A stretch of 64,000 nucleotides of DNA, taken from Tenrec ecaudatus (lineage: Eukaryota > Chordata > Mammalia > Afrosoricida > Tenrecidae). The position numbers and the translations under genes were made by a program. The notes under the pieces were generated by a model. It had not been told where the DNA came from. It worked only from the letters and a program-made list of their open reading frames with translations, and searched no databases. Below, piece after piece: positions 22,776-60,106 of this stretch. The stretch spans positions 128,942,937 through 129,006,936 of the forward strand of contig NC_134538.1 of the NCBI RefSeq assembly GCF_050624435.1, given 5' to 3'. How positions within the stretch are numbered: position 1 is the stretch's first letter; each line of letters begins with the position of its first letter.

Positions 22776-23111
22776 CAGTGGTTCTCAACTTTCCTAATGC
22801 CGTGATCCTTTCATACAGTTCCTCATGTTGTGGTGACCCCCAACCATAAAATTATTTTTGTTGCTACTTCATAACTGTCATTTTGCTACTGTTATGAATC
22901 ATATTGTAAATATCTGATATGCAGGTTGGATTTTCATTGTGACAAATTGAGCCCAATTAAACATAATTAAAGCATGGTGATTAATCACAAAACAATATGT
23001 AATAATATATTGTGAAATTTATTTATGTGTTTTCCAATGGTTTTAGGCAACCCCTGTGAAAGGGTCATTTAACCCCCAAAGGGGTCATGACCCACAGGTT
23101 GAGAACTGCTG
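22776..23111 (-). mobile_element. SPIN-type hAT MITE, short form
   Basis: Non-autonomous derivative of the SPIN hAT transposon, 336 bp. It begins CAGTGGTTCTCAAC and ends GGTTGAGAACTGCTG, forming terminal inverted repeats. The flanks CCTTAGGC (22768-22775) and CCTTAGAC (23112-23119) are an 8-bp target duplication with one mismatch and a central TA, as expected for Buster-type hAT elements. Its left part matches, in reverse, the 3' end of the full element at 50.27-50.55 kb, so it lies in minus orientation. It has no transposase and would depend on one supplied elsewhere. Confidence 0.88.
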
Positions 23112-46490: not shown

Positions 46491-47280
46491 CAGATTGAAA
46501 CACTGAATGGTCCTGCACCATCCTCACAATTTGTCCTGTGCCTGAGCCCATTGGTGCAGCCACTGTGATAATCCATTTCATCAAGTGCATTCTTTTTTAC
46601 TAAGGGCTCCACCCCTTAACCAAGGTTAATGTCTTTCTCCAGGGACTGCTCTCCCTGACAATATGTCCAAATTATGTAAGACAAAGTCTTGCAACCCTTG
46701 TCTGTAAGGAGGATTCTGGCCTTATTTATCCAAGTACAGATTATTTTGTCCTTTTAGCAGTACTCAGGACTTTTAATATTCTTCCCCAGTACCACAATTC
46801 AAATGAATCCCATCTTCTATGGCCTTCCTTATTCAATGTCCAACTTTTATCTGCATGCGATGCCCCGGAGAATACCATGGCTTGGGTCATGCGTACCTTA
46901 GTTTTCAAAGTAACATCCTTGCTTTTCACTACTCTAAGGAGGTCTTGTGCAGCAGATTTACCTAATGCCATACGTCTTGACTCCTATTTAATGGATATTA
47001 ATTATGGATCCAAATATTATGAATATTAATTATGGATAAGAGGATCTCTTGACTCCTATTTCCGTGAATATTAATTATGGATCCAAACAAGACAAAATTC
47101 TTGACACCTTCGACCTTTTCCTCCATTTGTAATGATGTTACTATTTGTCTACCTGTGAGGATTTTGGTCTTTCTCACATTGAATTGCCATCTACCACTTG
47201 TCTGTCAATTTGTCCTACTGTACTGCCTTGTGTGTGGCCGTGATATGGAACACAAAGTAAAACATGCCAAATAATACCAA
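46491..47280 (-). mobile_element. BovB/RTE LINE, C-terminal region
   Basis: Antisense BovB. The minus-strand frame 46741-46971 (76 residues) reads like the post-RT region of the RTE protein: T-K-V-R-M-T-Q-A-M-V near residues 24-33, then W-T-L-N-K-E, and near the end F-E-L-W-Y-W-G-R-I-L-K-V. 47070-47275 holds more upstream RT sequence ('attgccatctaccacttgtc'). A short tandem repeat of 'gaatattaattatggat' units at 46990-47085 separates them. Not functional. Confidence 0.75.
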
Positions 47281-47294
47281 ACTAGAGTTAGGGC

Positions 47295-47764
47295 TGTGAT
47301 GGCTAAATTATATATACACTGGATTTTTCTGAGTGAATGTAGGGTACAGCCCAACCTATAAATCAGATCTCCACCCGCTGCCACCTCCTTGGCGATATGG
47401 CTTTTTATATAAGAGAACCCCTGACCAGAACTGGGCTCTCCCTGTTCACCGCCTCCTTGATCTGAATTCTATTTTTAGGTTATAAACCTCCTGCTCCGTC
47501 ACCTGCTGATCCCAGGAGCCATCATGGAACTGCTGACCAAAAGAATGAATGACTCAGATTCATTCAGCACTGCATCCACCAGCATGTGCCCTTTGCTGTG
47601 CTTCTTCCTGCTTCCTGTTTGTCAGCTCCTGCAGCTGCATCAGCTAGGAGAAGCTTCCAACTTACATCTGACCTATGGACTTGAACCCAATTGAATTTGG
47701 CTATTTCTACAACAGAGTAAGCCATTTTTTATCTAAATATCTGTTGATATACATACATGTAGAA
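47295..47764 (+). mobile_element. Older LTR-like element, 5' part (split by SPIN)
   Basis: Starts TGTGATGGCTAAATTATATA and carries a roughly 450-bp LTR-like body. It lacks its 3' end at the SPIN boundary, but immediately after SPIN, 50559-50600 supplies the family's end ('ttcttccctagagaacccat', then CAAACATA). The transposon therefore landed inside this element. Confidence 0.6.
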
Positions 47765-50550
47765 CAGTAATTCTCAACCTTTGTGTCGTTATCCCTTTGG
47801 GGTTGAATGAACCTTTCATAGAGGTGGCCTAAGACTATCGGAAAACACATATTTCTGAAGGTCTTAGGAACCAAGACACTGCTCCTCTATCTGTCTGCAG
47901 GCGGGTCTACCACATGCAGATAGGCCCACATACGAGTACCTGGTGTGTTGATATCATTTTCACCAACACCATCACACACACCCCATACAAATACAGGTAT
48001 GTGTGACAGGGTTGGCACCATAGTGTATTTGGTGCAGACCAATCACACATGTGTAGAGAGCAGCTACTGTGTAGAAAGCAGCTGCTGTGTTGAGAGCAGT
48101 TACTCTGTTAAAAGAAGCTACTGTGCTGAAAGCAGCAGTACTGGAGGTAAAATGACACTTCATGAATTATAATTACTGGGTAAATGTAAAATCATCAACT
48201 ACTGCAATATATATATGTACCGTGGTCTTTTGTCCTCAGCTGTGGTTGATGTGAATGCTGTGCCCTTTTTATAGTAACAGATATGTAAAAAGCACACACA
48301 CACACAGAGACTGGTAAATGAAAGGAAACTTTAATGATATATATTGACTGAACTATGCCTTATATCATCTTTTATATTATTAAAGCTATGATTATCTATT
48401 ATTTTCATTAGCAAACCATCCCATGACAATTGATCATGTAGAGAAGAATGTTAAGAAAAGAAAATATAGTGAGGATATTTTACAGTATGGTTTTACCTCA
48501 ATTATTATAGTAGGAATTGAGAAACCACAATATGTTATTTGTTGTGAAGTTCTATCGGCTGAATCTATGAAGCTGAACAAACTAAAATGGCATTTTGATA
48601 ACAAACAGCTGAGCTTTGTCGGCAAGGATACCAACTATTTTAGAAGCAAAACTGATGGACTCAAGAAAGTCAGACTTGACACTGGTGGCAAGTACCACAA
48701 ACTAAACGTAACGGCTGTTGAAGCTTCATATTTGGTGGCACTCAGCATCGCCAGAGCTATGAAACCTCACACCATTGCTGATGACGTACTGTTGTCAGCA
48801 GCCAAAGACATTGTTCGAGTGATGATCGGAGATGAAACTGAGTGCAATTTCCTTATCTAATGACATTGTGCAGAAGAATAGATGACGTGCCTGCTGATAT
48901 TCTTGATCAGGTAATCCAGGAAATTAAAGCTGCTCCAATTCCAATATTTAGCATTCAGCTTGATGAATCCACAGACGTTGCAAACTGTTTACAGTTACTG
49001 GTTTATGTGAAGTATATTAATCATGGCGACTTTAAAGATGAGTTTCTTTTTTGCAAACCTTTTGAAGCAACAACTACACATGATGCATTTGACACAGTTG
49101 GTTCATTTCTGAAAGAGCATAAGATCTCTGGGAAAAGGTTTGTGGTGTTTGCACAGATGGTGCTCCAGCTATGCTAGGATGTCGACCTGGATTTCAAAGT
49201 TTGGTACTAAATGAGTCACCAAAAGTCATCGGAACTCACTGTATGATTCATCGGCAAATATTAGCAATGAAGATGCTGCCACAAGAGTTACAAGAAGTAA
49301 TGATAAGCATCATAAGTTTTGTCAGCTTTGTAAAGGCGAACACTTTAAACAGTCGACTGTTTTCTCAACTGTGCAATGAGTTGGATGTGCAGAATAACGC
49401 GCTGCTATTTCACACTGAAGTGATATGATAGTCGAGAGGAAAAGTTCTAAAATGTGTTTTTGAATTTCGTAATGAACTCAAACGGTTTTTATCAGAGGGC
49501 AAGACTGCAGTTCAAAGCACTTTTCAGTGATAAAAGTAAACTGTAGAAAATAGCTTACTTGGATGACATCCTTGCTAACTTGAATGAGTTAAATTTATCA
49601 CTGCAAGGACCAAATACAACAGGCCTTGATTTGTCTGAAATGATCAATCAATTGCTTTGGCAATAATAATATTGGATAAAAATAAAATTTACAGGTTGCC
49701 TACCTTACGTGCTTTCTTTGAGGAACATGGCATTGAACCAGACAAAAGGATTATGATAATAATTCCTGTGAAAGAACACTTTCACATACTTACAGACACA
49801 ATTTCATCGTCCTTTCCAAATCTACCAGACACGCATTTGCACTTGCCAGAAGCCCATTCACAGTCAAAGTTGAAGATGTTCCTGAGGCAGCACAAGAGGA
49901 GTCCATTGAACTTATTAATAGCGATGTAGTGGAAACTGATTTCTCTACAACGCCAGTTACAAAATTCTGGATCATGTGTTTGCAGTCATATCCTGTTCTG
50001 TCTGAGACTGCGTTGCACCCTCTTCCATTCTAACAACATGTCTTTGTGAAACAGGGTTTTCAAGTGTGTTGGTTATCAAGTCTAAATACAGAAGTAGACT
50101 TGTTGTGGAAGATGATCTTCGTGTGCTCTTGCAAAGACTGCCCTGAGAATTTCTGATCCGGTGAGAAAGCAGCTAACTCAACCTTCACACTGATGCTGGC
50201 TTTTTATGCATACTGTCGCAAAATGTACCAATATTACTGTTGTTATATTAAGACTGTTACCCATGCTACACCATGCTTCAAGACACAATTTCATTTATTT
50301 TTAAGTAGAAACAGATATTTCACAATATATAATTACATGTTGTGTTTGTGATTAATCACTATGCTTTAATTATGTTCAATTTGTCACAATGAAAATACAT
50401 CCTGTATATCAGATATTTACATTAAGAATCATAATAGAAGCAAAAGTACAATTATGAAGTAGCAATGAAAATAACTTTATGGTTGGGGGTCACCACCACA
50501 TGAGGAAGGCTACTAAAAGGTTGTGGCCTGAGGAAGGTTGAGAACCACTT
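47765..50550 (+). mobile_element. SPIN hAT DNA transposon, full length, inactivated
   Basis: Cut-and-paste transposon of the hAT superfamily, Buster-type SPIN family, 2,786 bp. This is close to the size I recall for the autonomous element (about 2.8 kb). Terminal inverted repeats are CAGTAATTCTCAACC at the left and GGTTGAGAACCACTT at the right. The flanks ATGTAGAA (47757-47764) and TTGTAGAA (50551-50558) are an 8-bp target duplication with one mismatch and central TA. Both ends match the two short SPIN copies in this window. A transposase pseudogene occupies 48423-50193. SPIN is known for horizontal transfer among tetrapods including tenrecs; that is family knowledge, not shown by this sequence. 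Confidence 0.92.
48423..50193 (+). pseudogene. SPIN hAT transposase pseudogene
   Basis: Remnant of the SPIN transposase, which would bind the element ends, excise and reinsert it in the nucleus. The N-terminal piece (48423-48860, 145 residues) holds the BED-type zinc finger at residues 32-60. Its C-x2-C pair is broken (Tyr before V-I-C) and the last His is replaced by Gln. The second piece (48842-49177) carries L-D-E-S-T-D, the region of the first catalytic Asp. The third (49171-49428) continues after the T-D-G-A-P-A-M region, which is reached only after a one-base slip near 49135. A further piece is at 49657-49929. The hAT C-terminal dimerisation region (about 49955-50150) still shows C-E-T-G-F-S with the Glu. 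At least four frame breaks and stops near 49425 make it inactive. I chose 48423 as the first Met that opens into the recognisable N-terminus. Confidence 0.9.
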
Positions 50551-50558
50551 TTGTAGAA

Positions 50559-56392: not shown

Positions 56393-56877
56393 AGGTGGTT
56401 CTCCACCTTCCTAAGGCCACGACCCTTTAATACAGTTCCTCATGTTGTGCTGTGTCCCAACCACAAAATTATTTTCATTGTGACTTTATAACTGTCATTT
56501 TGTTACTGTTATGAATCAAAATGTAAATATCTGATATGCAGGATATATTTTCATTGTGACAAACTGCACATAATTAAAGCATAGTGATGAATCACAAAAA
56601 CAATATGTAATTCTATATTATGAAATATTTTTTCTAATGACAAATAAATGAAATTTTGTCTTGAAGCATGGTGTAGCATGAGTACCAGTCTGCATGCCGG
56701 TACTCTTATGTGGGCATATCTGCATGTGGGCAGACCCACCTGGAGCCAGATAAAGGAGCACTGTCTCATGCCTAAGACCTGCAGAAATATGTGTTTTCCG
56801 GTAGTCTTAGGAGACTCCTGTGAAAGGGTCGTTTGACGCCCCCAAAGGGGTCTCGACCCACAGGTTGAGAACCACTG
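56393..56877 (-). mobile_element. SPIN hAT internal-deletion derivative
   Basis: 485-bp non-autonomous SPIN copy. Left end TGGTTCTCCACC (first bases decayed), right end GGTTGAGAACCACTG. Flanks CTCTGGAG (56385-56392) and CTCTAGAC (56878-56885) are a decayed 8-bp target duplication. In reverse it joins about the first 165 bp of the full element (47765-47930) directly to about its last 285 bp (50265-50550). It therefore looks like a simple internal deletion of an autonomous SPIN and keeps no transposase. The frame 56551-56955 is a non-coding reading. Confidence 0.9.
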
Positions 56878-59942: not shown

Positions 59943-60106
59943 ATACTTACCCGGCAGGGGAGATACCATGATCAGGAAGGTGGTTTTCCCAGGGCGAGGC
60001 TTATCCGTTGCACTCCGGATGTGCTGACCCTTGCGATTTCCCCAAATGTGGGAAATTCGACTGCATAATTTGTGGGAGTGGGGGACTGTGTTCGCGCTCT
60101 CCCCTG
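59943..60106 (+). pseudogene. U1 snRNA retropseudogene
   Basis: 164 bp, the exact length of vertebrate U1 snRNA, aligned end to end. It starts ATACTTACCCGGCAGGGG (the usual splice-site-pairing 5' end with one change) and contains the stem-loop II region with GTTGCACTCC (usual ATTGCACTCC, the U1A-binding loop). It keeps the Sm-site word AATTTGTGG at 60067-60075 and ends CTCCCCTG. I count a handful of differences from the standard U1. Upstream is BovB DNA and no snRNA proximal sequence element is visible, so it is probably not transcribed. An A-rich tail follows (60107-60119), and ATGTATC occurs just before the copy and again after the tail. This fits retroposition by L1. The protein frames at 59972-60202 are spurious. 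Confidence 0.93.

Follow-up and report, generated by a model that had tools for sequence, protein, structure and literature searches.

Transposons of the hAT type are defined by an 8-bp target site duplication (TSD) and short terminal inverted repeats (PMC11008031). The SPIN (SPACE INVADERS) elements have been placed in the Buster family, a TSD of the form nnnTAnnn being given for TcBuster, and Hermes has been assigned to the Ac family (PMC3499496). SPIN has been reported from tenrec, galago, murines, opossum and vesper bats, with an age range of 15-46 My, and one element has appeared in print under the name SPIN_NA_1_Et (PMC3183009 for the name; PMC5857283 for hosts and ages). The occurrence of SPIN in tenrecs had thus already been published (PMC5857283), and the element described here, from a window of 64,000 nt of the Tenrec ecaudatus genome (the whole stretch of DNA that was analysed), is one more ordinary copy. 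Four open transposase frames in the same genome were unexpected. The tenrec genome offers a datable, star-like burst of copies, a ratio of about 64:1 between matches to a terminal and a transposase probe, and these four open frames, which raise the question whether mammals have repeatedly recruited an acquired transposase or whether SPIN was active for longer than thought.

The element at 47765-50550 and its insertion site

The SPIN-type hAT element occupies positions 47765..50550 (+ strand) of the window, is 2786 bp in length and is full length and inactive. Its 5′ terminal inverted repeat (47765..47781, +) pairs at 14 of 17 bases with the 3′ repeat (50534..50550, +), which is the inverted counterpart of the left end (CAGTAATTCTCAACCTT). 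The flanking TSDs, ATGTAGAA on the left (47757..47764) and TTGTAGAA on the right (50551..50558), are identical at 7 of 8 bases and carry TA at positions 4-5 on both sides. The 8-bp TSD and the short terminal inverted repeats are those of a hAT element, and the nnnTAnnn form of Buster TSDs was found on either side. An 18-bp tandem repeat of 4.8 units lies within the element (48050..48136, +); all 16 aligned full-length copies have it, in 2.8 to 4.8 units, after the 5′ end and ahead of the reading frame.

A remnant of the transposase reading frame extends over positions 48405..50193 (+); 8 indels break its frame and several in-frame stops occur. Joined reading of three frames, with 8 frame changes, gave about 600 residues of transposase with 4 in-frame stops, or 3 when read by alignment column. 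In the BED zinc-finger remnant (48522..48617, +) the first Cys and the last His ligands are replaced, i.e. two of the four zinc ligands, all of which are invariant among the relatives. Three acidic residues, which we take to be the hAT catalytic triad, are still readable on the + strand: a first D in the motif LDESTDV (48962..48964), a second D in CTDGAPAM (49156..49158) and an E in CETGFS (50048..50050). Among 63 residues that are invariant in 32 relatives, 13 have been lost in the window copy. No present function need be assumed for this element on the evidence. The initial annotation had described a full-length hAT element with matching terminal inverted repeats, a TA-centred 8-bp target duplication, a BED finger remnant and hAT catalytic motifs across broken frames; all of these features were recovered.

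The element is inserted precisely into an older interspersed repeat (47280..47756, +), similarity to which goes on for about 40 bp past the element. Other copies of this repeat were collected from the genome (40 scored of 1,230 candidates), and the 39 outside the window were 68-82% identical. For the empty-site test, the element and one copy of the TSD were deleted by script and the joined flanks were aligned to 19 fetched repeat copies. Eleven of the 19 were continuous across the joined flanks by a preset criterion, and these are paralogous copies of the repeat without the element. Base-by-base alignment covered 12 empty-site copies, namely these 11 and L050; L050 stops just before the junction, and a weaker, detached piece of L056 did not enter the empty-site count. 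The insertion and the duplication are thus observed directly. By analogy with the family, a SPIN transposase would have excised the element elsewhere and inserted it into the older repeat by cut-and-paste, producing the 8-bp TA-centred duplication, and the copy would then have decayed neutrally for some 30 My, depending on the rate.

Copies, age and short derivatives in the tenrec genome

Further copies were searched for in the assembly with the first 741 bases of the element as query. Among the 40 scored of 6,551 candidates, 27 (including the window copy) covered at least 683 of the 741 bases. Full-length, uninterrupted fossils were found in 15 of the 39 fetched regions and gave, together with the window copy, a set of 16; the other 24 regions were interrupted, truncated, running off the fetched stretch or short derivatives, and were excluded from the divergence count. 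The K2P divergence of the 16 copies from their majority sequence was 0.087 (0.072 without CpG sites), and the pairwise mean was 0.138, i.e. the set is star-like. The window copy, at 0.079 from the majority, lay within the range of 0.057-0.087. All three codon positions had decayed about equally in the fossils (713, 704 and 708 changes). If 2.2e-9 substitutions per site and year are assumed, the non-CpG divergence of 7.2% places the burst at about 33 My, an age that is rate-dependent. In the tenrec genome paper the split from the golden mole is dated to 49.4 Mya, that from other tenrecs to 27.1 Mya and that from Echinops to 14.4 Mya, and the words 'transposon' and 'hAT' do not occur in its main text (PMC13063843).

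TSDs were surveyed in 42 copies, with shifts of up to 2 bases allowed at each end; L001-L008, which are places already in the set, were omitted. Both ends were found in 31 copies, 27 of which had a TSD identical at 6 or more of the 8 bases. Of these 27 copies, 21 had TA at positions 4-5 in one or both halves of the duplication and 17 had it in both. When flanks were swapped between copies as a control (200 shuffles), on average 8.4 and at most 15 of the 31 copies scored likewise, a high value that arises because the target sites resemble one another.

The abundance of transposase-bearing and short copies was compared with two 24-mer probes, allowing up to 2 mismatches (controls 0 and 0). The transposase probe gave 1,090 and the 3′-terminal probe 70,029 matches (about 1:64), which are counts of matches and not of insertions; some of the 1,090 sit in a multi-megabase duplication on C40. 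Transposase-bearing copies are therefore much rarer than short derivatives, as the initial annotation had said of an intact-length autonomous copy, but full length as such is ordinary, 15 more such copies having been found among the 39 regions. Its view that the element is useful for dating the invasion likewise holds for the set of 16 copies, but not for the window copy alone. In the duplicated part of C40, from about 12.6 to beyond 40.7 Mb, SPIN fossils (L076-L081) occurred at repeated spacings, two pairs of them exactly 2,091,310 bp apart; they were 99.6-100% identical in pairs and formed three types that were 80-85% alike. This arrangement reflects either a recent multi-megabase amplification or an assembly duplication.

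Two short derivatives, both on the minus strand, possessing both ends and without transposase, were located in the window itself: derivative A of 485 bp (56393..56877; TSD GTCTAGAG/CTCCAGAG) and derivative B of 336 bp (22776..23111; TSD GTCTAAGG/GCCTAAGG). Both ends of the long element were retained in A and B at 81-85% identity, and the TSD was TA-centred on both sides in B and on one side in A. The same burst would have yielded these two and very many other short, internally deleted derivatives, which the same transposase probably mobilised in trans. The window also contained a match to the full U1 snRNA model at 59943-60106 (+) with 159 bits.

Relatives of the transposase remnant

A Pfam search with the separate broken pieces yielded no hAT family match; the evidence for a hAT transposase came from the relatives. 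With the Pfam hAT dimerisation model, the Nycticebus coucang protein P0008 scored 22.5 bits, just above the cut-off of 21.4, and the Protobothrops mucrosquamatus protein P0001 scored 18.9 bits, below it. The joined reading matched 1,292 relatives, 120 of them listed. The best among the matches listed, over the whole length, were from Protobothrops (76%), Bufo and Myotis (75% each) and Crotalus, Nycticebus and Pantherophis (74% each). Eight relatives, from three snakes, a toad, two vesper bats, a loris and a gecko, showed a mutual identity of 86-91%. A tree of 28 proteins placed the window copy in a largely unresolved clade of 17 rows (support 94/82), the hosts of which were snakes, geckos, Anolis, toad, Xenopus (a reported SPIN host), loris, bats and muroid rodents; four other frogs were placed outside this clade. 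Its inner branches were short (0.005-0.04) and the order of the hosts was not recovered. By path length the rows nearest to the window copy were snake, bats and loris, and a pairing with two vesper bats had weak support (83/78). Raw tblastn identities between frameshifted copies and the proteins of other hosts were too scattered and were not used.

Three of the relatives showed features of their own. P0001, the closest relative, has N in place of the second presumed catalytic D and may be inactive despite its open frame. The gene model of P0008 combines a SPIN transposase with a long extra N-terminus with a weak TPR score (E 0.16, below cut-off); the extension is either part of a fusion gene or an artefact of the gene model. 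A SPIN-like protein from the tunicate Clavelina lepadiformis (P0042), represented by 15 member sequences, was 70-78% identical to the vertebrate proteins compared, suggesting that the SPIN-like family may reach tunicates.

A phmmer search of PDB sequences with the snake protein gave no match, and a predicted fold was therefore used for the comparison with known hAT transposases. The window copy itself being broken, an open relative from the same genome (L083, see below) was modelled, with a mean pLDDT of 83. The 12 PDB chains found by Foldseek below E 0.001 were all of the Hermes hAT transposase; the model points to a hAT-type fold, although TM values were 0.41-0.56 and the rmsd was large (8.5-18.5). 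TcBuster and Hermes are hAT transposases like that of the window element; Hermes differs in belonging to the Ac family (PMC3499496) and in a sequence identity to L083 of only 14-16%.

Close relatives of the window element were thus found in unrelated tetrapods, in a tree that does not track host phylogeny, and in a host of the tenrec lineage the estimate of about 33 My, rate-dependent as it is, falls within the 15-46 My given for SPIN. The SPIN-like host distribution and the hAT type given in the initial annotation, and the Buster family, were supported by the relatives, the tree and the TSD. The tenrec host was supported by an intact TLR5 gene in the assembly, which over 858 residues was 100% identical to that of Tenrec ecaudatus and 90% to that of Echinops telfairi; 25 cytochrome b matches included no mitochondrial contig and were taken to be nuclear mitochondrial fragments. 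We regard the element with high confidence as SPIN (hAT, Buster), a transposon that has spread horizontally: a dead copy of full length in T. ecaudatus, which belongs to a burst and has decayed neutrally since. The name SPIN is very likely and derives from the host list of the relatives, not from a direct match to a consensus. The TSD type, relatives in reported hosts, the star-like tree and the large burst of short derivatives are shared with SPIN, and no tested feature differs. The copy comes from T. ecaudatus and not from Echinops telfairi, to which the 'Et' in SPIN_NA_1_Et presumably refers.

Another horizontally transferred hAT of the same branch (e.g. OC1 or hAT-HT) would also agree with the report that other hATs were transferred into tenrec (PMC5857283). 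The nearest proteins, however, come from groups with reported SPIN (vesper bats, a strepsirrhine, muroid rodents and squamates) and the TSD is TA-centred as given for Buster elements, which makes a non-SPIN identity very improbable. Vertical descent of an old hAT, shared by all Afrotheria or by mammals as a whole, is hardly credible. In the one afrotherian genome that was compared, the divergence of 7.2% at non-CpG sites looks far too low for an age common to all placentals, and inheritance since an early afrotherian was rejected for this reason; the toad and snake relatives, moreover, are as close as the mammalian ones.

Uninterrupted transposase frames elsewhere in the genome

A search of the assembly with the snake relative protein gave 7,153 candidates, 72 of which were scored; four of these were uninterrupted over the whole length, with 614-615 residues and 91-92% identity to the snake protein. 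The remaining rows covering at least 580 of the 614 residues had 8 or more stops each. The sequence reading covered L083 (C40:206507713-206509551, 614 residues), L084 (C55:100790512-100792353, 615 residues) and L085 (C40:69875107-69876945, 613 residues); the fourth open frame (C121:16523847-16525679) was seen by the protein search. In L083, L084 and L085 the presumed catalytic triad and the zinc ligands are intact, and only 1, 1 and 2, respectively, of the 63 invariant residues are lost. The open copies are separate insertions, since their mutual homology is limited to the element (87-89%) and no flanks are shared; at this level of identity a recent origin from one another was rejected. Within the stretch fetched, L083 lacks its 3′ end or has it displaced by other sequence, and the 5′ terminus of L084 looks damaged; neither copy therefore looks mobile. 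No Tenrec or Echinops protein was present among the 120 listed of 1,292 relatives or the 120 listed of 1,837, and no report of open SPIN frames in tenrec was found in the titles and abstract openings of the papers listed, subscription papers being mostly outside this scope.

The 16 fossils carried on average 8.6 frame-breaking indels, with at least 5 in each, and 5.8 stops, counts that may shift by about 1 per fossil owing to an A-tract column; the single event scored in L083, L084 and L085 is that column and is not real. Nonsynonymous and synonymous changes numbered 50/40 in L083 (p=4e-4; 2.4e-3 without CpG sites) and 42/36 in L084 (p=2.5e-4; 6e-4 without CpG sites) versus 1562/563 in the fossils, the ratio in both copies being half that of the fossils. 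L085, which showed few changes of any kind, did not differ significantly (44/21, p=0.32; 0.87 without CpG sites). Changes confined to single copies gave 23/19 for L083 (p=0.0013) and 16/12 for L084 (p=0.02) versus 780/225 in the fossils (p=1.1e-4 for both together), and 13/7 for L085 (p=0.18). When neutral decay was simulated at 4 scales with 20,000 runs each, the counts of L083 were never reached and those of L084 in at most 0.00015 of the runs. Among stop-free simulated frames, a ratio as low as that of L083 occurred in at most 0.7%; the open copies had been chosen for their open frames, a selection that these simulations meet only in part. The 5′ noncoding parts of L083 and L084 had diverged by 12.5% and 13.3%, versus 5.8-11.9% in the fossils.

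The open frames could be co-opted transposases, or later movers or arrivals. SPIN exaptation has been published for murines, and the muroid 'ZBED8-like' proteins (P0021, P0026, P0030, P0032-P0037) are uninterrupted SPIN-like transposases with 79-84% identity to the L083 protein. These proteins are mostly longer (624-757 aa), and the three included in the tree formed a clade of their own; the tenrec open frames are separate insertions, for which no annotation was found. That the tenrec frames, too, are separate SPIN insertions under selection for a host function is favoured here at somewhat less than an even chance, and offers the simplest account of L083 and L084. It accounts for four whole frames among the 72 scored candidates, where about 0.0006 would be expected by chance in 1,090 copies at fossil age, for the low nonsynonymous change in L083 and L084 despite noncoding parts more diverged than those of the fossils, for the persistence of this signal in single-copy changes and simulation, and for the damaged ends of both copies. 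Against it, 0.8 chance survivors would be expected in the 1,090 for a copy half as old, L085 is not significant, neither annotation nor orthologues support it among the relatives listed, the copies were picked for their open frames with three of the four read, and it would be unusual for a single genome to show more than one co-option of this kind. It is thus no more than tentatively, and with distinctly less than even confidence, that we propose that at least two and perhaps four separate SPIN insertions keep their frames under purifying selection whereas the other copies examined have decayed, i.e. repeated co-option of one horizontally acquired transposase alongside tens of thousands of short derivatives.

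Alternatively, the open frames may have arrived later, or may have been the last to move in a lineage that remained active, with selection acting on the transposon and not on the host; this we consider a serious possibility, at rather less than an even chance. L083 is no closer to the tenrec fossil majority (92.3%) than to the snake protein (92%), which speaks for such an origin and against co-option. Amino-acid changes that were also seen in other hosts made up 55-64% of those in the open copies versus 29-45% in the fossils, a recurrence that fits either constraint or separate ancestry. Pairs of L083, L084 and L085 shared 15-18 changes from the fossil majority, compared with a mean of 12.2 and a maximum of 22 in fossil pairs. 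All three had 10 such changes in common, more than any of the 560 fossil triples (mean 2.8, maximum 9), although each of the 10 was also present in 4-8 of the 16 fossils. The three open copies may thus come from one sub-lineage, which weakens the case for co-option. The few changes in L085, and the match of L085 and the fourth open copy to L084 up to both ends, also agree with late movement. Against this reading, near siblings were not seen: no match above 89% was found to L083 or L084 among 40 scored candidates each, some broken partial copies reaching 87-89%; the 5′ noncoding identity between L083 and L084 is only 80%, and the absence of shared flanks likewise stands against it. Chance survival of the frame, finally, is likely for L085, whose counts were reached in up to 9% of the neutral simulation runs.
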